DNA of 64,000 nucleotides from the NCBI GenBank assembly GCA_016722945.1, contig JAEQMT010000010.1:451765-515764 (forward strand), given 5' to 3'. The notes beneath the pieces were generated by a model. It had not been told where the DNA came from, ran no database searches, and saw only the letters and a program-made list of their open reading frames with translations. Both the position numbers and the translations under genes were made by a program. The DNA comes from Desulfofustis sp. PB-SRB1. Lineage in GTDB: Bacteria; Desulfobacterota; Desulfobulbia; Desulfobulbales; Desulfocapsaceae. Positions 29,588-42,507 of this stretch are shown in pieces. Position 1 is the stretch's first letter. Every line of letters starts with the position of its first letter.

Positions 29588-30358
29588 ACAAATAAGGGGA
29601 CAGATATATTTTATTGCCCCTATGACCTGTTTAGCAGTATAAGCAGAGTATGCCACGTCAAGCACGAGTAATATCACCCAACACCCCGCATCATGTGATG
29701 CAACGCGGACATAACCGTCAGGTTGTCTTTGCCTCCGATGATGATTTTGCCTATTACCGTAGGAATATGATTTTCTTTAAGAAGGAGTTTGGCTGCAAGA
29801 TATATTCGTATTGCCTGATGAGCAACCATGTGCATTTGATTGTCAATCCTGGGGATACCCCTGAGTCATTATCACTGTTGATGAAACGTCTGGCGGGACG
29901 GCAGACCAGGTATGTCAACAGGCTTGAAAAACGATCAGGCAGTTTATGGGAGGGCCGGTTTAAATCAAGCATTGTCTCAAGCAATGAATACCTGCTTTCC
30001 TGTTGTCGCTATGTTGAGTTGAACCCTGTCCGGGCAGGTATGGTTGAAGAGCCATCTGCATATAAATGGTCTAGCTTTGCCAAAAAAATAGGTATGAAGC
30101 GTGATCCGGCAGTGGATTATGATTGTGTATACACGGCACTGGGGAATAGTGCTGCAGAACGGCAGCAAGCGTATGAAGACTATGTTGTTCAGACGATACC
30201 TGAAGAGGAAATAAAACTGATCAGGGCTTCCATCCAGCGCAATCAAGTCACCGGCGGCAACCGGTTCAGGGAGCAATTGGAGAGGAAGTTGAAAATCAGA
30301 TTGTCAAATAGGGGTCCCGGCCGGCCGAGAAAAGTTTAAAATAAATCTGTCCCGTTAT
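29588..30358 (+). mobile_element. RAYT element with REP-like flanks
   Basis: A REP-associated tyrosine transposase gene flanked by inverted REP-like sequences. Left flank GGGGACAGATATATTTTATT (29594 onwards), right flank AAAATAAATCTGTCCC near 30,338-30,355, which is its imperfect inverted complement. Its right end abuts a truncated aldo/keto reductase copy, so insertion may have destroyed that gene. Confidence 0.7.
29650..30339 (+). CDS. REP-associated tyrosine transposase (Y1_Tnp)
   Basis: 229-residue single-strand DNA transposase related to TnpA of IS200/IS605. MPRQARVISPNTPHHVMQRG is the standard start; the HUH metal motif is HVH (residues 60-62 in SNHVHLIV), and RYVELNPVRAGMV is the conserved C-terminal core block. 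RAYTs cleave and join REP sequences and are usually domesticated and single-copy. The flanking inverted sequences match this role. Confidence 0.92.
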   Translation: MPRQARVISPNTPHHVMQRGHNRQVVFASDDDFAYYRRNMIFFKKEFGCKIYSYCLMSNHVHLIVNPGDTPESLSLLMKRLAGRQTRYVNRLEKRSGSLWEGRFKSSIVSSNEYLLSCCRYVELNPVRAGMVEEPSAYKWSSFAKKIGMKRDPAVDYDCVYTALGNSAAERQQAYEDYVVQTIPEEEIKLIRASIQRNQVTGGNRFREQLERKLKIRLSNRGPGRPRKV

Positions 30359-31971: not shown

Positions 31972-33218
31972 TCATCTATCCGTCGAATACAGCACCGGCA
32001 GCCGGTAGAGGATGAAGCGGTAGACCATGAAGTAGATGCAGAGCACCGTGAGCACCAACCAGATCTCGCTCCATCGCGGGATTTCCTGGTAGAGCCGCCA
32101 GTTGTAGGCGACCATGGCGGTGTTGAGCCGGTTGACGATAATTCCCGCCACCGCGATCAGGGCACCCGCCCGGATCAGCGGCAGGTGGTGGTGCCGCACC
32201 CCATAGGCGAACATGATCATCGGCGCCACCACGCCGATAACAATCTCTAGTAAGAAATAGCCGCCCCAGCCGCTGAGCAGATAGGCCCATTCTTGATCGT
32301 GGGCGACACCCACCAGTTTGATGGTGAGATAGGTGATCATGGCCAGCGCCGCGCCCTTGGCCAGTTTGATGGTCAAATCGTCAAGGGTGTCGAGAAAACG
32401 GCTGTCGCATCGCCAGGTCATGGTCCGGGCAACGAGGGTGGAGACCACGATTACCATGGACAATCCCCCGAATATGGAGGAGACAAAAAAGTGCAGCCAC
32501 TGAAATTCCGGTGCTATCCATAAGGGGTGAATCTTGGCGGGGCGTAGCAAAACAGTGCCCCCAGCGCCCCCTGGTGTAGGGTGGAAAGAATGATACCGGC
32601 AATGGTCAGTCCGATGGCGATTTTCTTGATAAACCGTTTCAGCCCCGGCCACTCCATCCATTCGGCAAAAGCGGGCATCATTTCGGCAACCTGCACGGAT
32701 AGATAGGTAGCAACGTGCCAGGCGACGAGAAACAGTACCGCGGCCGGTCCCAGGGAAATAAACATGGGGTAGGTCAAACGCCACGGCATGCCCAGATCCA
32801 CCAGCAGATACACCACCGCGAAGAAATAGCCGAGCAGCCCATTGAGCAGGGCGAGACGTTCAATGGGTTTAAAATCTTTTCTTTCAAAAATTTCCACCGC
32901 GGTGCTCAGCAGAAAGCCGGAGGCGGACAGCGGCACCATACCGAACAGGCCAAACCCCAGCAGCACTCCCCAGGGGTAATCCTGGGAGCCGTGGGTAACG
33001 GCGCCGATCCCGTAGATATAGCGTATGGCCAAAAGCGGCAGGCCGACACTTAGAATCGCGGCGAGCACCCAGTTGACCGGGTTAATCAGACCGCCATGCA
33101 GATAGTCGCGCCAGCTTTTTCCCAGCAGCAGCTTTTGGCTTATGGTGAGTCCGTCGGCAGCGGCGCCGGCGGATGTCGGGGTAAAATCTTCGCGGGCCGG
33201 ACTGGTTACACTATTCAT
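31972..33218 (-). pseudogene. NrfD/HybB-type quinone-interacting membrane subunit, frameshifted
   Basis: Two frames together make a protein of about 415 residues with eight to ten helices, the size of HybB/NrfD-family subunits. The first part starts at ATG 33218 and carries IERLALLNGLLGYFFAVVYL and STLHQGALGALF; the second (to 31972) continues KIHPLWIAPEFQWLHFFVSS. The break is near 32,553, where GTTTTG would read GTTTCTG if one base were restored. These proteins exchange electrons with the quinone pool for periplasmic partners. Its start overlaps the ferredoxin gene by eight bases. The single-base change may be a sequencing error in an otherwise conserved gene. Confidence 0.82.
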
Positions 33219-34140
33219 CGCTTATCTCCGTGTCGGCACTATCCGGGTGAACCCGATTTCTGCGCGCCAGCAGATGAAATCCGGCGAACAGGGCCGGCCA
33301 GATGGTCAGCACCATCGGCACAATGGCAAGAAAATCCTTGACGTAGTTGATAATCGGCTCGGTGGGAACGGTGGTGTCAAATCCCGCTTCGGCAAAGGGC
33401 ACCGGTGAGAGGTAGAGCCATGAGGTGCCGCCCGCCTCGTGCTCCCCGTAGATGTGGTTGACATACTCGTCCGGGCGGGTGCGGATGCGATGGCGGGCGA
33501 TGCGCAACAGGCTCTCCCGTTCGCCGAAGGTGAGGGCATCCCGGGGACAGGCCTCGACGCAGGCCGGCGGCCGGTCGTATTGGAGACGGGTTTCGTAGCA
33601 GAACTGGCACTTCATGATGCGCGGATGCAGGGCGCTGTCGTAGCGAAAGGCGGGTATGGAAAATGGGCAGGCAACCATGCAGGTGCGGCAGCCGACGCAC
33701 ACCGATGGATCGTAGATGACCGCCCCCTGCGCCGTCTTGGTGTAGGCATTGACAAAACAGGCCGTCAAACATGAGGGTTCCAGGCAATGGTTGCACTGGA
33801 TCTTGCGAAACAGCGGATGGTCTGCCAGCGGCGAATCGGTGCGATCCACCACCGTGTAGGCTTTGTCGTCGGGCCGGCGGTGGCCCAGATGACCGGTATC
33901 GGCAAACACCGACTGGTCGGTAAACGGTGTTGCCGGCGCCGGCAAACCCTGTTCCTTGTTGCACGCCGCTTCACAGCTCCGGCAGCCGATGCAGCGGGTG
34001 AGATCCACCAGCACTGCTTTGCTGTGGGCGTATCCCGAAAATGCCCGAGCCTGTGCCGGGGCACTCTTAAACCCAAGAATTCCAGCAAGCGCAGCGGTTG
34101 TGCCGGCCTTGAAAAAGCTTCGACGACTGATCCGTTTCAT
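33211..34140 (-). CDS. Tat-exported four-cluster ferredoxin subunit (HybA-like)
   Basis: 309 residues from ATG 34140, which overlaps the cytochrome stop (ATGA). A Tat signal (SRRSFFK at residues 5-11) is followed by four 4Fe-4S cysteine groups: CIGCRSCEAAC, CNHCLEPSCLTAC, CVGCRTCMVAC and CQFC with CVEAC. Near the C-terminus a hydrophobic helix (about 270-295, FLAIVPMVLTIWPALFAGF) anchors it, as in HybA. It should pass electrons between the pentahaem cytochrome on the periplasmic side and the NrfD/HybB subunit encoded next. Confidence 0.92.
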   Translation of the reverse strand: MKRISRRSFFKAGTTAALAGILGFKSAPAQARAFSGYAHSKAVLVDLTRCIGCRSCEAACNKEQGLPAPATPFTDQSVFADTGHLGHRRPDDKAYTVVDRTDSPLADHPLFRKIQCNHCLEPSCLTACFVNAYTKTAQGAVIYDPSVCVGCRTCMVACPFSIPAFRYDSALHPRIMKCQFCYETRLQYDRPPACVEACPRDALTFGERESLLRIARHRIRTRPDEYVNHIYGEHEAGGTSWLYLSPVPFAEAGFDTTVPTEPIINYVKDFLAIVPMVLTIWPALFAGFHLLARRNRVHPDSADTEISDE

Positions 34141-34655
34141 TGGTCTGCTCCCTGGTTTTTCGGTGAACCGAGTAATGAATCGGTAAGGTGAAAGAATTTC
34201 TTGCCTTCCTCGGTGAAGGCGTGACAATCAATGCATTCGATGGGACCGGCATCCACCGCCTGATGGCAATCAAGACAGTTTATATGATAGGCTCCGGCCA
34301 GGCTGACAATATCGATGTGATACCGGTGTGAAGGCCGCGGTTTAGCTGCATCTTCTCCAGACGGCCTTTTTGTACCGTGGCAGTTGCGGCAGGCAACACT
34401 TGCGCCTGCCGTTGCGGTGGTGTGACAAATGGTGCAGCGGGGATCGGTGGCCGGCGACGCGGTGGTGTGGTGATGGCACTCGGCGCAATCGGCATAATCT
34501 ATATGCAGTTGGTGATCAAAACGTACCGGCTCGTAGAAGTGCGCAAGTGAGTCCAGGACTATGAGCCGGGGAGGCTCATCTTCCGGTGGCGGTGCGCCGC
34601 CGGCAGGTATTGCCCCTATGGATATGGCCATGGCTGCAAACAGGAAATATTTCAT
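34137..34655 (-). CDS. Pentahaem cytochrome c
   Basis: 172 residues with a signal peptide (about 1-20) and five CxxCH haem sites: CAECH (57), CTICH (74), CRNCH (89), CLDCH (127) and CIDCH (141). Additional histidines (48, 51, 62, 63, 110, 113, 124, 156) can serve as distal ligands. Five haems beside a Tat ferredoxin and an NrfD-type subunit parallel the NrfB-NrfC-NrfD arrangement, but no nitrite reductase is present. It starts directly after the ftsH stop, so all four genes look co-transcribed. Confidence 0.92.
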   Translation of the reverse strand: MKYFLFAAMAISIGAIPAGGAPPPEDEPPRLIVLDSLAHFYEPVRFDHQLHIDYADCAECHHHTTASPATDPRCTICHTTATAGASVACRNCHGTKRPSGEDAAKPRPSHRYHIDIVSLAGAYHINCLDCHQAVDAGPIECIDCHAFTEEGKKFFHLTDSLLGSPKNQGADQ

Positions 34656-36478
34656 GCCGCGATCCTCTCGTGGTGGTGCGATTTCATGGTGTTTTGTTCG
34701 GTTCCGATGCGGTTCAGATAACAGCGGTAGATGATATCGATTTCATCTCGATCCAGGGTCTCATGGATGAGCAGGGCTTCAGCCAGCATGTGGACGAACA
34801 TGTCATGCTCTTGCATAAGTTTGCCGGCGACGCTGGCGCACTGGGTGATGATGCGGCGGATCTCATGATCTATCTCGCGCCTGGTTTGCTCGCTCTGCAT
34901 CATGCATTGCTGATCGTGGGTCTCGGTATCAAAGGGCGTGCCGCAATAGATGGGGCCGATCCGCTCACTCATTCCGAACTCGCAGACCAGGCGGGCGGCG
35001 ATGGCGGTGGCGCGTTTGATGTCGTTGCTTGCCCCGGAGCTCTGTTGGCCGAAAATCAGCTCTTCGGCCTGTCTGCCGCCCATGAGAATGGTGATACGGT
35101 CCAGCAGATATTCGCCTGAGAAAGTGAGTTGGTCGTCTAGGGCGATCTGGGTGGTTTGCCCCACTGAATGGCCGCGGGGGATGATGGTGACCTTGTGCAG
35201 CGGGTCGGCATCGGGGAGCAGCGCGGCGATGACCGCGTGGCCGGCTTCATGATAGGCGGTGAGCCGTCTGGTTTTCTCGGAAACCACCGCGGTCTTGCGG
35301 GCAATTCCCATGATGATCTTGTCTTTTGCCTCTTCAAAATCGGCCAATTCCACGGAAGTATGGTTTTTTCGTGCCGCCAGTAAAGCCGCTTCATTCACCA
35401 GGTTGGCTAACTCCGCCCCGGAGAAACCAGGCGTTGCCTGAGCGATTACCGAGAGATCAAGCTGAGCGGCAATGGTCACCCGGGCGCCGTGAACGGCAAG
35501 AATCTTCAGCCGCTCTTTTACGTCGGGCAGGGTAAGGGAAATACGGCGGTCGAAGCGGCCGGGACGGAGCAGGGCCGAATCAAGGATGTCGGGACGGTTG
35601 GTGGCCGCCATGACGATGACGGTGGCTTCAGAGCCGAATCCGTCCATTTCCACCAGCAAAGCGTTTAAGGTTTGCTCGCGTTCGTCGTTGGTACCGCTGC
35701 GCGGCCCGCCGCTGCGGGCGCCGCCGATGGCGTCGATTTCATCGATGAAAATAATGCAGGGCGCATGTTTTTTGGCTTCGGCAAACAGCTCACGTACCCG
35801 GGAGGCGCCGAGGCCGGCGAACATCTCCACGAAGTCGGAGCCGCTCAGGTGATAAAACGGCACTGATGCTTCCCCGGCAATAGCCTTGGCCAGCAGGGTT
35901 TTGCCGGTTCCCGGCGGACCCTCCAGAAGAACCCCGTGGGGGATGCGGCCGCCCAGTTTTTCATAACGCTGGGGAGTGCGGAGAAAATCGGTGAGTTCTT
36001 TCAGTTCTTCGCGTGCCTCCGATATTCCCGCCACGTCGTTAAAGCTGACGGCCGGGCAGGTGTCGCATCGTTGGCTCAGTTGTTTGGTGCGGGCAAACCG
36101 GGTGGAAGTATTGTTTTTACCGGCCGTGAAAATGAGCCAGCCGCCCAGCAGCACAAGGACGATGAGCAGGTCGCGGGAAAGCCCGACAAGCTCCCCTTGT
36201 TTTTCAGTGGAAATCTCGATGCCGGCCTGCTCCAGCTGCGGCAGCAGGGCGCCCACATCGGGAGCAAAGGTGTTAAACTCCCGGTTACTCTGGTCGGTAT
36301 AGACAATCTCACCGCCTTTGATGTGTACTGAAGCGATGTTGCCGCCTGCCAATTCAAAGAGAAAGGTGCTGTAGGATTGTTCCGGCACACGGTTGCTGAT
36401 GACGGCCAGATTGATCAGTACGACACCGAAGAAAATGGCAATTAGCAGTCCGATAGCGGCGCGGGTCGGGGTGATCAT
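34652..36478 (-). CDS. ftsH: FtsH-family membrane AAA protease (paralogue)
   Basis: 608 residues from ATG 36478, seven bases after AAGGAG; ATG 36484 and a longer frame to 36568 are less likely. Two helices (about 9-28 and 102-118) flank a periplasmic domain of about 75 residues. Walker A GPPGTGKT (187-194), Walker B IIFIDEID, the SRH region and the zinc motif HEAGH (410-414) are intact. Unusual is C138-x2-C141 ([15 protein letters not shown]) between the second helix and the AAA domain. Genetic linkage to a cytochrome/ferredoxin/NrfD set suggests quality control or regulated proteolysis tied to this complex, which is inference. Confidence 0.92.
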
Positions 36479-37006
36479 GGTCATGCTCCTTGACGCCTGT
36501 ACGGTTACCTCGCAGGCATGAACGCGGTTATCTTGAGTCAATGCATAATCGGTGCCCAAATAGTGCAATGACGCAGATAAACACGATATCGGCGATGAAG
36601 ATTAAAGCATAATGATTACGATTAGTTATAGAGTATAAATGGCGGTTGGATACCACCTGATCTTGTCACCTGGGTAGATGATAGTGGTGGTGTGCGATAA
36701 CCCGGCTCATCTGCCACACATGTGTTGCAACACAGGTGTGGCACCGGGTAAAAGGGGATCAGTTGCCGGGAAACCCTGTCCTGCCTGGGCCAGGGGTGTG
36801 CTGGCGGTTTCCCACAACCTATATATGTTCTGTGCAGATTTCTTACCCTGCATTTCGGTACGGCGTGGTATGGTATACCGTGATGCCGGGTGTATTGAAA
36901 ATGGCCCGTCTTGCCTCGTTTCCCTGCTGGTTCTGCGCCCTGTAGCTTATTGCATGTTTTGACCATCGAGGCTCCTGCTATTACTGAGGGAAATACGCTG
37001 AGCCCC
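36479..37006. other. Intergenic region upstream of the ftsH operon
   Basis: About 530 bases between the regulator gene and ftsH. It contains the 32-bp palindrome at 36,712-36,743 and an inverted pair GGGAAACC / GGTTTCCC (about 36,779-36,812). No convincing sigma-54 promoter (GG-N10-GC) was found; TATACT near 36,635 on the minus strand could be a -10 element. No T-rich terminator for the regulator gene is evident. Confidence 0.5.
36712..36743. promoter_or_regulatory. 32-bp palindrome, probable activator site
   Basis: Near-perfect dyad: TGCCACACATGTGTTG followed by its inverted arm ending GTGTGGCA, with a single mismatched pair and TGTTGCAACA at the centre. It lies about 235 bases upstream of the ftsH start, a typical distance for an NtrC-family enhancer. 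The regulator encoded just upstream (37,007-38,824) is the obvious candidate ligand; a half-site occurs before the kinase gene. Confidence 0.6.
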
Positions 37007-38824
37007 CTATTCCAGGGCGATGGCGGAAAGGTCGATGTTGTGTTCTCTGATTTTGCGATACAGGGTGGAGCGGTCAATGCCTAAAAGCCGGGCCGCTTTT
37101 GCCTTATTACCGCCGCATCGGGCCAGGGTGGCGACAATGGTATGGGCGATGTCATCTCTTTTCGCCCGCGGCGTCATCTTGTAGGCCTCACTATCCACCG
37201 GCGTTGGCGGGAGATCATCAATGCGAGGGGCGGGGGAGGACACGGCGGGTGTCTGGGTGCGCAACTCCTCGGGAAGGTCCTGGGTGGTGATGGTGGGGGT
37301 CTTGCTCAACACCACCGCCCGTTCGATACAATGTTCCAGTTCGCGGACGTTGCCCGGCCATGGATACCGTTCAAGCAGATACATGGCATTGTCGGAAAAA
37401 CCGCTCACCGGTTTGCCCCCTTTTTTCGCGAAGAGAGAGACGAAATGGTGTGCCAGCAGGCGCACGTCACCGTTTCGCTCGCGAAGCGGCGGCAGTGTCA
37501 CATCGATCACCCGCAGGCGGTAGTAGAGATCTTCCCGGAACAAACCCTCTTCCACCTTTTGTCGCAGGTTGACGTTGGTGGCGGTAATTACTCTGGCATC
37601 CACTTCGATGGGGGTATCACTGCCTACCGGGTAGAAGGTTTTTTCCTGCAGAAAACGCAGCAGTCTGAGTTGAGTCATGGCACTGATTTCACCTATTTCA
37701 TCGAGAAACAGGGTACCCCCCCTGGCCTGCAGAATAAGGCCCGGTCGATCTCGGTCGGCGCCGGTAAAGGAGCCTCTTTTATGGCCAAAGAGCTCACTTT
37801 CCAGAAGATTCTCGGTGATTGCCGTACAATCCAGTTTAATCAACGGTCCGGCGTGCCGTTTCGATTCCCGATGGAGGGCCTCGGCGGCCAGTTCCTTGCC
37901 GGTTCCCGACTCACCGGTAATCAACACGGTGGTGTCGGAGGCGCCCACGTGTTCAATGGTGGTGTAGACGTTCTGCATGGCGTCACTGGCGCCCATAAAG
38001 CGATGAAAACCGGCCCGCCGGCTCGTTGCATTATGAGAACGCCTGGACATGTCGCGGATAACCACGACGGCGCCCAGATAGGTTGTCCTGTTTTGTCTGA
38101 TGGGTGAGGTGCAGATGCTCAGAATTCTCGGTTTGAGGGTGATGGTCTTGCATTCAAAACAGTGTTCGCCGATATCCTCGCCGGTTTTCAGGACTCTGAG
38201 CAAATCGGCGCGCAGGGTGGAAAATTCGTCCCGGTCAACCTCGGTCGTTAATTGTGAACCCTCCCCTATACCGGGCAGAAAATCGGCGAAAAGCCGTTCC
38301 GCTGCATCGTTGAGCTTTACGATGGTAAGTTCCGCGTCCACCACAATGATGGCATCGGAGACGCTTTTAAATACCTTGTCCAGAAGTACCCGGTACCGTT
38401 CCCGCTGCTGTTCGGCGATACGGCGCTGTTTTTCGAGGTGCTGGTGGCGCAGGGCCATACCAACGGAACGCAGCAGCTGTTGCTTGTCGATGGGTTTGGT
38501 GAGGTAATCGAAGGCGCCCAGCCGCACCGCCTCGGCGGCGCTTTCCACTTCCGGGTATCCGGTAATCATGATGAATGGACAGTTGATCCCCAGTTCCCGG
38601 CTGTTTTTCAACAGATCAATGCCGCTGGACCGCTCGAGAACGATATCGCTGATCACCAGATCAATGGCGTTGGCGCCGATGATCCGTAACGCTTCATCGA
38701 AATTCGAAGCGGTATACACCGGCTGATACCCTTCCCGAGTGAGGAAAAATTCAAAGGTTTCACGCAGACTCGATTCGTCGTCGACGATCAGGATGGAACC
38801 GGTAGTATTGCGCTCATCAGCCAT
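37007..38824 (-). CDS. NtrC-family response regulator with internal PAS domain
   Basis: 605 residues from ATG 38824 (GGAGG seven bases upstream); the frame extends into the upstream gene but without a better start. Domains: receiver (10-125; D15, D16, phosphoacceptor D60, K110), PAS (about 150-265), sigma-54 AAA domain with GESGTGKE and the GSFTGA loop (variant of GAFTGA), and a C-terminal Fis-type helix-turn-helix ([20 protein letters not shown]). It should activate sigma-54 promoters when phosphorylated. It is last in a three-gene minus-strand operon with the kinase and a PAS protein. Confidence 0.93.
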
Positions 38825-38867
38825 AGTCAAACCTCCATCCTTGTGGCATGTTCCATGCCTGGTAGAT

Positions 38868-39623
38868 TTATGGTTCAAATGCACTGAGGTCCCTGAACAC
38901 CACCACCGCTCCCCGGATATCACCATTTTCGGTGATCGGGGTGGAGACGTATTCCACCGGAAAACTGGCGCCGTCTTTGGTCCAGAACACATCGGTTGAA
39001 CTTGAGTGGACGACACCGTCGCGATACGCCTGCTGTATCAAACACTCCCCGGTATGCAGCGGCGATCCATCCGGCTTGCTGTGATGTATCAGTTCATGGT
39101 GGGACCTGCCGATTAACTCGGTGGGCTCGTAGCCGACCATCAGGGCGGCGGCGGTATTGACGAATATGAAGTTGCCATCGGTATCAAGTCCGAGAATTCC
39201 CTCTCCCGCCGAGTTGAGGATGAGTTCGAATTGTTTTCGCAGTTTTTTGGCATGCGCCTCGGTCTGCATGCGCTCCGCGATTTCCCGGTTCAGGGAAGCG
39301 TTGATAACGGTTATCTCCAGCTCTTTTTTTTCTGAGCGTTCCTCGCACGTGGCCTTTGTCTGGGCCAGTGCGACCCGGGTTTGTTCCAGTTCAGTGACCA
39401 GCGAGTCATAGCGGCTCTGCCCGGATCGCTGGATAGCGAGCAACGCGGCAATCATGATGCCGGCAAGGACGGTAATGGTAAACCATGGAGCGATAAGCAT
39501 GGGCGTGCCGCCCGACCCTTGGAGAAGATAAAATATCAATGATATGAATATGCTGTGTGATATCACCACCACTGAAATCCAAAGACTAGCCCTGGTTTGC
39601 CCGGGGCTGCTAAGCGTTGTCAT
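38868..39623 (-). CDS. Membrane-anchored PAS protein
   Basis: About 250 residues. Starts at ATG 39623 (or 39629), overlapping the end of the kinase gene, after GAGG. Two N-terminal helices (about 18-35 and 42-62) are followed by a coiled coil (about 70-130) and a PAS/PAC domain (about 135-250, AGEGILGLDTDGNFIFVNTA) that ends with the protein. No kinase or output domain is present. It may sense a membrane or redox signal and modify the kinase or regulator beside it; that is inference. Confidence 0.85.
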   Translation of the reverse strand: MTTLSSPGQTRASLWISVVVISHSIFISLIFYLLQGSGGTPMLIAPWFTITVLAGIMIAALLAIQRSGQSRYDSLVTELEQTRVALAQTKATCEERSEKKELEITVINASLNREIAERMQTEAHAKKLRKQFELILNSAGEGILGLDTDGNFIFVNTAAALMVGYEPTELIGRSHHELIHHSKPDGSPLHTGECLIQQAYRDGVVHSSSTDVFWTKDGASFPVEYVSTPITENGDIRGAVVVFRDLSAFEP

Positions 39624-41640
39624 GTTCATCCTCAATGATCGGCAACTCAATGGTGACGGTGGCCCAACGCCCCCGTTCGCTGGTAATGTGAATGGCGCCG
39701 CCGTTGTCCCGGATCAGGCCGTAACTGATGCTCAACCCCAGGCCGGTGCCTTCGCCTTCCGGTTTGGTTGAAAAAAACGGATCAAACACCCGTTCGATCT
39801 CGTGATGCTCAAGGCCGACCCCGAAATCAGTCACACTCAGCCGGACAAACCCCTTGTTTGTCCGCGGTGCGGTTGAGGTGGACATGACGATTTTCTTTTC
39901 CGGGTGGGGGCCGGGGTATTTTTTATTGAGGGCATAGCGGCTGTTGCTGATCACGTTGAGCAGCACCTGCTGGATTTGCGCCCCGTTGCAGTATACCAGG
40001 GGGAGCTGGTAGCAGGGGTTGCGTTCGATGATAATGTGATCGCGGTGCAATTGGTGAAACACCAGATCAACGCAGCTGTCGATCAAGGCGCATAGTTGGT
40101 GCGGCTCCGGCTCGGTCAGCCGTCGCCTGGAGAAATCAAGAAGGTTGCGGACGATCATGGCGATGCGCTTGCCTTCATCGATTATTTTGCCGCAAATTTC
40201 ACGGGTGTGAAGATCTTCGACGAGATCCTCAATCATCTGGGCGTAATTTAAGATACCGTTGATCGGGTTGTTTATTTCATGGGCAACGCCTGCCGCCAAC
40301 TCGCCGATGGCGGCAAGTTGGGAGGAACGCAGGGATTCGGCCTTGAGCTGCTCTTCTTCGGTGGTGTCACGCGCCACCAGCAGAAATGCCTCATCGTCGG
40401 TGTCGCCGCTGCGCAGGGGACTCAAGGTGAGCAGGTAATCGCCGTGCAGGCCGGTGAGGTGAGTGTGCAGAATTCTGCTCTTGCCTGCCGCCAGCAGACC
40501 CTCCAGTGGACACACGGCGTTTTCCGAGTGACCGCCGTGTAAAATCTCGCATATACTTTTGCCGATTACTTCATCACGATTTTTCCTGGCGGCGGTAAAG
40601 GTGGCGTGATTGGCATCTAGAATCTCCCCGGCGGTGGTGGCAATGAGGGCCGGATCCTGGATGGTGGTGAAGATGTTTTCCCATTTAGCCACCGCCGTAT
40701 CGTAAGCGCGATCAGCTTCCAGGCGCTCGGTAATGTCGATGCCCAGCAGCACCATGCCGACGGTGCCCTCTTCGATCTCGGGTTTGATCGAGGCGTACCA
40801 GTCGATGGTGCGATACCGGCCGGCGCGGGTCTGAAGATCCGCCCGGAAGCTCAGCTGGCTGCTGTCACTTTTGAGCAGGTATGAGAGCACTTTCTGGTAA
40901 TGAAGCCGCTGTTCCGGGACCAGCAGGACATCCACCCAGTAGCGGTTGAATACCTCCTCCTGGCGATACCCGGTGACCCGCTCGGCCTCCGGATTAAAAC
41001 GGGTAATGTGGCCGCATGGGGTGATGGAAATCATCAGGGCCTGAATGGTATCGATGATCTCGGTGTTGAAATCCCGCTGCGCCTTGAGCTTGTGCGTCAC
41101 GTCATGGGCGTAGAGGGCAAGGGAGATGTCGGCCACGGCGGTTTGCAGAAATTCAAATTCACCGGGGTCCAGCCCATCCATATCGGTGGAGAAGATGAGG
41201 GTTACGCCGTGGCTATGCTCCTGGTGTATCAGTGGAAAGGCGGTGCATGCATGGTAGCGGATGGGGACCCGGTCAACCATTAGGCGACGGGCCGGCCGCA
41301 GGTGCGATATCGCCTTTACCGCCTGTTCATGCTGACATTGCAGTACCAGTTTTTTTAGATCACCGCGCAGGGCAATGGGGTGGCCCCGGGAGGGGTATCC
41401 GGGGTCGGGAGTCAGGCAGAAGGTGGTTAATTGACCGTCCCGGGGTGAGCGTCGAATTACCCCTACCGCCGGATAATTGCCGTGGGAGGCAAGGATCTCG
41501 CCGCAGCGGATGAGGATATCCCGGCGTGGCCGGTTGCGCCAGGAGATGGCGTTGAGCTGATTGATGTCGCGCAGAAGCAGGGCGTGACGGGCGGTAAGGT
41601 CGCGGTCGTGAACTGCGAGAGAATCTGGTGCTCTTTTCAT
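39610..41640 (-). CDS. Multi-PAS sensor histidine kinase
   Basis: 676 residues from ATG 41640 (TAGGGG five bases upstream); ATG 41658 is possible. No membrane helices. A GAF-like domain (about 50-190) precedes two PAS domains (about 205-320 and 330-430); then HisKA with the phospho-histidine in VAHEINNPINGILNY and a HATPase domain (NVISNSRYAL, DFGVGL, GTGLGLSISYG). The soluble, GAF/PAS-rich architecture suggests cytoplasmic sensing. It heads the operon with the PAS protein and NtrC-type regulator and probably phosphorylates the latter. Confidence 0.92.
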   Translation of the reverse strand: MKRAPDSLAVHDRDLTARHALLLRDINQLNAISWRNRPRRDILIRCGEILASHGNYPAVGVIRRSPRDGQLTTFCLTPDPGYPSRGHPIALRGDLKKLVLQCQHEQAVKAISHLRPARRLMVDRVPIRYHACTAFPLIHQEHSHGVTLIFSTDMDGLDPGEFEFLQTAVADISLALYAHDVTHKLKAQRDFNTEIIDTIQALMISITPCGHITRFNPEAERVTGYRQEEVFNRYWVDVLLVPEQRLHYQKVLSYLLKSDSSQLSFRADLQTRAGRYRTIDWYASIKPEIEEGTVGMVLLGIDITERLEADRAYDTAVAKWENIFTTIQDPALIATTAGEILDANHATFTAARKNRDEVIGKSICEILHGGHSENAVCPLEGLLAAGKSRILHTHLTGLHGDYLLTLSPLRSGDTDDEAFLLVARDTTEEEQLKAESLRSSQLAAIGELAAGVAHEINNPINGILNYAQMIEDLVEDLHTREICGKIIDEGKRIAMIVRNLLDFSRRRLTEPEPHQLCALIDSCVDLVFHQLHRDHIIIERNPCYQLPLVYCNGAQIQQVLLNVISNSRYALNKKYPGPHPEKKIVMSTSTAPRTNKGFVRLSVTDFGVGLEHHEIERVFDPFFSTKPEGEGTGLGLSISYGLIRDNGGAIHITSERGRWATVTIELPIIEDEHDNA

Positions 41641-41708
41641 GACGCCCCTATATCCCACGATGGATACTACACTTATGATGCATTAACGCCCATATGTACC
41701 CCAATTAT

Positions 41709-41735
41709 ACCACATAAGTGTTGCAAGCGGTGGCA
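41709..41735. promoter_or_regulatory. Half-site of the 36.7-kb palindrome
   Basis: CCACATAAGTGTTGCAA (41710-41726) matches the left arm and centre of the palindrome at 36,712 in 15 of 17 positions with identical spacing; the right arm (GGTGGCA) is shifted by four bases. It lies about 70-95 bases upstream of the kinase start, suggesting autoregulation of the kinase operon. A TATAAT (minus strand, about 41,704-41,709) overlaps its edge. Confidence 0.45.
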
Positions 41736-41752
41736 GGAGCCATCCTTATTGT

Positions 41753-41914
41753 TGATTAATTCGTAAAAACCCTGATATTGCTTGCTTTCGTCATTCCCGC
41801 CCTCGATAACAACACTCAAGGGCAGGCTTCAGCGGGAATCCAGTAATTTCATTTAATTACGGGTTTCGGGTCAGCTCCACCATGACGGTAATAGGAGGTT
41901 TTACGAATCCATCA
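41753..41914 (+). repeat. MITE-like repeat family A, copy 3
   Basis: 162 bp from TGATTAATTCGTAAAAACC to GGTTTTACGAATCCATCA. TTGT flanks both ends (41749-41752 and 41915-41918). Interior matches copy 4 closely (CCCTCGATAACAACACTCAA, then CAGCGGGAATCCAGTAATTT). Opposite orientation to copies 2 and 4. Confidence 0.75.
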
Positions 41915-41992
41915 TTGTTTGTCATGCAAAATCAGCGCCAATACGGAAGCCGTGGATAAGATTATGGCGGATTCCGCAGCGCAGTGTTGTTT

Positions 41993-42442
41993 CTACGGCG
42001 TCACTATCATTTCACGGATGTGTTCAAAGTTGTCCACCATGAGATAGCGCTCGATGATGATGATGAGCAATACCGTACTGGGTGATTCGAGAAATGAGCG
42101 CAGGGCTGGATGTTTGGCAAGATAGAGAGCGCTGTAGTGTGGATAGCTGGAAACCGGGAGCGGGGTTGCGGTGCCGATGGCGGTGAGGGAAATGGCCTGG
42201 GTGAAATCGTTTTCCGAATTGGCGCGGTTGTCAAACAGTAGAGAGACCCGCGCCTCGGCCATAATATTGGCGTGCTTGCGGGTTTCCTGGCCGGTGGCGG
42301 CCACGATGGTGGAAAGATCGGCGGTGTGGGCAAAGGCCATGAGGCTGGTATACGGCTGGTTCTGGTCCTGGGTAGCGAGCACGGCAAGGCGCTGCGCGGC
42401 GAGCAGAGCGGCGATATCGTCTCTAAGGCGGGAGGTCGTCAT
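41993..42442 (-). CDS. Pyridoxamine 5'-phosphate oxidase-like flavoprotein
   Basis: 149 residues of the PPOX/FMN-binding split-barrel fold: LAVLATQDQNQPYTSLMAFA at the start is the typical strand pair, followed by TRKHANIMAEARVSLLFDN, the family's second conserved block. Such proteins bind FMN or F420 and many are uncharacterised. Single gene, minus strand, divergent from the small gene at 42,587. Confidence 0.85.
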   Translation of the reverse strand: MTTSRLRDDIAALLAAQRLAVLATQDQNQPYTSLMAFAHTADLSTIVAATGQETRKHANIMAEARVSLLFDNRANSENDFTQAISLTAIGTATPLPVSSYPHYSALYLAKHPALRSFLESPSTVLLIIIIERYLMVDNFEHIREMIVTP

Positions 42443-42507
42443 GAATACTCACTCTATCTTAATTGTTGCCATATTGCTCTGATTAAGGTAAAAATATCTC
42501 TCATATC

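Follow-up and report, generated by a model that had tools for sequence, protein, structure and literature searches.

A conserved palindrome behind an NtrC-family response regulator gene as predicted upstream activating sequence of an ftsH/Hmc-like redox operon

Which protein, if any, reads the long palindrome that lies between a response regulator gene and ftsH in Desulfofustis sp. PB-SRB1? The window, i.e., the whole stretch of 64,000 nucleotides that was analyzed, carries on its minus strand, in this order, genes coding for a histidine kinase, a PAS protein, a response regulator, and then, after a gap of 529 bp containing the palindrome, FtsH, a cytochrome, an HmcB-like protein, and an HmcC/NrfD-like protein. 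The sensor histidine kinase (39610-41640, -) has PAS domains, and another PAS-domain protein (38868-39650, -) is encoded between it and the regulator. The regulator (37007-38824, -), the presumed binder of the palindrome, is composed of a receiver, a PAS domain, a sigma-54 AAA+ domain, and a Fis-type HTH. The matches to PF00072, PF00158, and PF02954 are all above cut-off, which is the domain set of an NtrC-type bEBP, and both Walker motifs are present (A, GESGTGKE; B, GGTLFLDEI). The sigma-54 contact loop reads GSFTGA, a one-residue variant, the exact GAFTGA being absent. The protein shares with NtrC, AtoC, and ZraR the receiver, the sigma-54 AAA+ domain, and the Fis-type HTH; it differs from them by the extra PAS domain and by scoring under all three NCBIfam equivalog cut-offs (414 of 714 bits for AtoC, 404 of 559 for NtrC, and 363 of 760 for ZraR).

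The presumed target operon starts in this genome with the FtsH-family membrane protease (34652-36478, -), followed by a small c-type cytochrome with five CXXCH motifs (34137-34655, -; Pfam cytochrome c3/c7 matches just under cut-off), the HmcB-like iron-sulfur protein (33211-34227, -), and the HmcC/NrfD-like membrane protein (31972-33218, -). The last two are Hmc-like only, as both fall under the equivalog cut-offs of HmcB (375 bits, cut-off 420) and HmcC (169 bits, cut-off 550, with the first open frame alone scanned). The open frame of the HmcC/NrfD-like gene breaks and seems to continue in another frame; the gene apparently lies across two reading frames, through either a real frameshift or an assembly error.

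A first-pass annotation had described a 32-bp palindrome at 36712-36743, and it is indeed found there, with 15 of 16 pairs matching (arms of 18 nt, 36712-36729 and 36726-36743, 94% complementary). It consists of two overlapping 18-bp dyads that start 14 bp apart, each matching the consensus TGYNACANNNNTGTNRCA at 12 of 12 positions. A copy before the kinase gene had been said to match 15 of the 17 bases of the left arm, and CCACATAAGTGTTGCAA at 41710-41726 (+) does so, with two differences in 17. Its description as a half-site has to be replaced: there is a full 18-bp dyad (TGCAACACTTATGTGGTA on the - strand, 41708-41725, 11/12), and a second one 43 bp after it (TGCATCATAAGTGTAGTA on the - strand, 41665-41682, 10/12). 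When the whole genome (4.69 Mb) is searched with the left-arm 17-mer, four places have two mismatches or fewer, namely both arms, the kinase site, and one on contig C34; at three mismatches seven more places are listed, one of them again within the palindrome. A degenerate 17-mer with up to three mismatches has four matches in the window (three in the palindrome and one at the kinase) for 0.54 expected, a number reached by none of 100 shuffles, although this pattern was built from both sites and so favors them. Random occurrence throughout the genome had been named as a refutation of the motif. It does not apply to the 12/12 dyad, which is found in the 4.69 Mb at the palindrome only, but single dyads with at most one mismatch are at background level in this genome (12 positions, compared with 10 for the reversed control pattern). 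Because of this background, position and conservation, and not sequence alone, carry the case for the kinase copy. A wider regulon in this genome, for which additional one-mismatch dyads might have been taken, is not supported, these being at control level.

Conservation was analyzed by scanning genome contigs with the regulator, which gave 50 loci. Six of these (L053-L058) were dropped as distant and another (L047) ends before the regulator stop, so that the counted set has 43 related loci and the window, i.e., 44. The names among them include Desulfocapsa, Desulfobulbus, Desulforhopalus, and Desulfoprunum; a taxonomy look-up of the first, third, and fourth places them in the order Desulfobulbales. 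Many loci, not all, share the order kinase, PAS protein, regulator, gap, IS1595-type gene, FtsH, cytochrome, iron-sulfur protein, and NrfD. Matches to the 32-mer of the window at 23/32 or better were found in 28 of the 49 loci scanned (up to four best matches per locus), each about 600 bp or less behind the regulator. Dyads of at least 11/12 concentrate in two zones. The 700 bp that follow the regulator gene contain 40 of them, spread over 26 of 44 loci (counting the window), and the 500 bp preceding the kinase operon contain 21, found in 16 of the 37 loci having such DNA. All other DNA, 600 kb in total, has only four, two reaching into the regulator stop codon region. Each of 12 permuted dyads has at most one match in either zone and between 1 and 36 elsewhere. 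Since the consensus was written after viewing sites behind the regulator, the count in that zone is partly circular, and the kinase-side count is the cleaner test. The base frequencies of the two sets of dyads agree.

The motif is thus present in orthologous loci at both expected places, which supports, at the level of sequence comparison, the initial proposal that palindrome and kinase site are candidate binding sites of this regulator. Absence from orthologous loci, the other refutation named, holds for a part of them: at 11/12 or better 18 of 44 loci have no dyad following the regulator, and 21 of 37 have none ahead of the kinase operon. At 10/12 or better 38 of the 44 loci have one behind the regulator, but the background is higher as well, at 0.11 per kb. 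Among cultured species, Desulfopila IMCC35006 (L030) and Desulfogranum mediterraneum (L044), for example, have a related regulator without clear dyads; these regulators may be paralogs.

If the regulator is a sigma-54 activator, one would expect a -24/-12 promoter between the palindrome and the target operon. The predicted box GGGCACCGATTATGCA (36542-36557, -; GG-N10-GC) is imperfect, at 9/12, with ftsH 65 bp downstream and the dyads at a distance of about 170 bp, a layout that is the same in relatives. There, the regulated operon usually begins with a gene (27 loci) that codes for an IS1595/ISXO2-type transposase-like protein of about 300 aa, perhaps a domesticated transposase (domains checked in three loci; examples are L049:10056-10949 and L052:10136-11050). 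In the window no such gene is called between the regulator and ftsH, and its own genome has weak matches only (best 7e-10, 31% identity, residues 10-111 of 300). In all 25 loci tested, a GG-N10-GC box of at least 9/12 precedes the IS1595-like gene by 36-118 bp, whereas 8% of random 330-bp stretches score as well. The 36-118 bp range is approximate for L036, L046, and L048, as their gene starts were moved by eye to a later methionine, the coordinates of L046 and L048 being themselves approximate. The 25 were taken from the 27 loci with the gene, omitting L015 and L043 (late-called starts), which have a 9/12 box as well. A dyad of at least 10/12 starts 112-275 bp upstream of the box in 24 of these 25 loci, the exception being L024, which has none at that score. 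Upstream activating sequences are expected some 80-300 bp upstream of a -24/-12 promoter, and both this range and the distance of about 170 bp in the window lie within these bounds. The variable distance between box and dyads at the target operon is what a looping enhancer allows. A terminator-like stem is also observed between the palindrome and the promoter box (36641-36657, -), possibly the end of the regulator transcript.

We conclude that the palindrome is probably, with a probability of about 0.87, the upstream activating sequence through which the adjacent NtrC-family response regulator acts on the ftsH/Hmc-like redox operon. The motif, its position and conservation, the promoter geometry, and the co-occurrence with the regulator described below are read directly from the genomes; the steps from binding to activation are predicted from them. 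Regulator dimers on the two overlapping dyads would contact, by DNA looping, a sigma-54 polymerase waiting about 170 bp off at the -24/-12 promoter, and phosphorylation of the regulator by the linked kinase would switch on the operon of ftsH, cytochrome, and HmcB-HmcC-like genes. At its own kinase-PAS-regulator operon, whose transcription would start from a sigma-54 promoter in some members of the family, the regulator would occupy the two dyads near the beginning of the transcribed region. Such autoregulation from downstream could have either sign.

The arrangement at the kinase operon was not part of the first-pass annotation, which included neither the sigma-54 boxes, nor the downstream geometry, nor the mobile element found there. 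Some family members have a sigma-54 box upstream of the kinase-side dyads, which places the dyads behind the presumed start point. Among the 35 relatives with usable DNA, 17 have such boxes (18 in total). A dyad of at least 9/12 is found 48-53 bp downstream of 15 of the 18 boxes, 90-96 bp downstream of 14, and at both distances for 13. The corresponding numbers among 303 other boxes of the same score in these loci (both strands) are two, four, and zero. The 48-53 bp arrangement is absent from 20 of the 35 relatives.

The window has a predicted sigma-54 promoter of the kinase operon at 41925-41940 (-), TGGCGCTGATTTTGCA, with a score of 10/12; only three boxes as good exist on both strands of the 64 kb. 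It is separated from dyad 1 by a MITE-like repeat of 162 bp (41753-41914, -), which has inverted repeats at its termini and an ACAA duplication of 4 bp, so that the distance from box to dyad 1 is 215 bp. Once the repeat and one duplicate are removed, this distance becomes 49 bp, and that to dyad 2 becomes 92 bp. Because these spacings fall within the range of relatives, we take box and dyads for one old unit that was probably split later by the insertion. The repeat belongs to a family with at least 48 matches in its own genome, of which at least 38 extend over 155 query positions or more; both numbers are lower bounds, as 40 of 219 candidates were scored. The inverted arms have 16 nt (88%), the ends of the family are of TGATGG type, and an exact duplication of 4 or 5 bp flanks 11 of the 26 copies examined (of 30 loci). 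The element is thus short, present in many copies, and has inverted ends and a target duplication, as MITEs do, while the absence of a transposase gene is judged by its 162-bp length alone.

What the regulator would do behind its own promoter can be read in two ways, which are not exclusive of the activating role at the target operon. It could repress, as a roadblock or fixed complex behind the start site, and we give this refinement close to an even chance. The rigid kinase-side spacing (48-53 and 90-96 bp), compared with 112-275 bp at the target operon, points in this direction, as does the overlap in the window between dyad 1 and TGGTATAAT, a possible extended -10 box (41704-41712, -). Activation from the transcribed side is the other option. 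FleQ, FlrC, and FlbD are sigma-54 activators said to act from that side; they do so on flagellar genes, whereas here the case would be one of autoregulation of a redox-linked two-component system. In Desulfovibrio vulgaris, too, a few activator sites 40-70 bp behind sigma-54 promoters are predicted in the relevant passages of Kazakov et al. (2015, PMC4641369), which place sites of the flagellar regulator DVU1063 at this distance. As far as these passages go, the likeness is in activator sites downstream of the promoter, and the difference is that the sites described here belong to the operon of the regulator itself and form, in 13 loci, a pair with a fixed separation of about 42 bp.

A broader and more tentative proposal, which we hold to be more probably wrong than right, is that one motif serves in two modes, and that the MITE rewired the kinase operon. 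At the redox operon the motif would be a looping enhancer that tolerates different distances, and behind the regulator's own sigma-54 start it would be a rigidly phased pair. The dyads of the own operon, about four helical turns apart, would then form a fixed-geometry autoregulatory module. The MITE would have landed at about the predicted start point, moving the dyad pair from 49 to 215 bp, and the kinase operon may have been rewired, perhaps to the TGGTATAAT box inside dyad 1. That this box serves as promoter in place of the sigma-54 box is speculation. With the sigma-70 consensus, a scan of 36400-42500 gave five matches (4.1 in shuffled sequence), neither site being among them. In L042 and L017 the kinase regions contain GTGTGGTATAATG and GTGTAGTATAATG, which may be compared with TGGTATAAT.

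A different transcription factor could bind these sites and co-regulate the same genes. Sequence analysis cannot name the binder, and passages of PMC4641369 report similar motifs for different regulators in Desulfovibrio. The distribution of the motif, however, makes this improbable. A double dyad (at most two mismatches) is present in 18 of 58 related genomes (own genome included, no other of the genus of the window), and all 18 are among the 37 that have the regulator at E <= 1e-120, with none among the other 21 (Fisher p = 5.7e-5, kinship ignored). These genomes may overlap with the loci used for footprinting. The reversed control pattern occurs in none of the 58. The double dyad is absent from 19 of the 37 regulator-bearing genomes, so that its conservation together with the regulator, as expected of an upstream activating sequence, is seen in 18 of the 37. 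For most of the listed double-dyad places (17 of 21) a regulator match lies no farther than 3.4 kb away, the exceptions being in G027, on two short contigs of G008, and at G052:C19. In G027 the IS1595-like gene and FtsH come after the site, and both regulator matches are on other contigs; hence the site goes with the target. The Fis-type HTH and sigma-54 domain of the regulator, together with promoters of sigma-54 type, also argue for the adjacent regulator as the binder.

The palindrome might instead act as an RNA hairpin, i.e., as terminator of the kinase-regulator operon or as attenuator before ftsH. Its - strand RNA has a folding energy of -29.4 kcal/mol (z -3.7), and the palindrome sits behind the regulator stop codon. 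Yet its stem is not followed by the U-run of an intrinsic terminator, and a terminator scan that reported the 36641-36657 stem did not report it. In relatives, the dyads are also found as direct repeats (G043) or starting 19-35 bp apart (L009, L011, L015, L027), and such layouts would not form this hairpin. A dyad is also present before the kinase gene, and the double dyad lies between ftsH and the cytochrome gene in G043, G051, and G056. A main role as terminator or attenuator was rejected for the missing U-run, the negative scan, and the layouts of relatives, and we regard it as very improbable. At gathering threshold the only known RNA family in the window is a tRNA located elsewhere. A chance palindrome or a mobile repeat has a negligible probability: the genome does carry short repeats, including one upstream of the kinase, but the 12/12 dyad has no second place in it, and conservation of the motif at fixed places in many genera already refutes this explanation.

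The predicted upstream activating sequence has parallels in known systems. The enhancers of NtrC, AtoC, and ZraR are dyads upstream of a -24/-12 promoter, as here, and to our knowledge their motifs differ from TGYNACANNNNTGTNRCA. A description of the dyad motif or of the regulator was not found among the matches listed in openly licensed literature, searched by titles and abstract beginnings, a weak absence. The signal may be the redox state, which is our guess from the PAS domains and the Hmc-like partners. The nearest described case, within the passages considered, is the regulator DVU3142 and the ohcBAC operon of Desulfovibrio (Kazakov et al. 2015, PMC4641369), which makes the arrangement one of a known kind. 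As described there, a sigma-54 activator gene stands beside a cytochrome/iron-sulfur/membrane redox operon, with sigma-54 promoters and conserved activator sites upstream; this comparison is by description, not by motif letters. The differences in the same description are the divergent layout, the other genes, and FtsH not being named. The terms TTGCAA, TGTTGC, FtsH, and NrfD do not occur in the main text of that work.

These results provide a testable motif, a target operon, and a promoter set for a two-component system of many Desulfobulbales, which are sulfur-cycle bacteria, and tie this system to FtsH and an Hmc-like electron-transfer operon. The interesting part is the fixed downstream geometry together with its natural insertion variant. 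Because relatives keep the spacing, whereas in this genome a mobile element has apparently abolished it, the kinase operon is a natural experiment on whether downstream-bound sigma-54 activators need fixed spacing.

Two minor observations concern DNA outside the sites discussed. In one related locus (L041:16783-16842) there are three overlapping matches in a 14-bp register, about 7 kb past the regulator and outside both expected zones, which is perhaps another target. The window also contains, at 29650-30339 (+), an open reading frame whose product we take to resemble a REP-associated (Y1) transposase.
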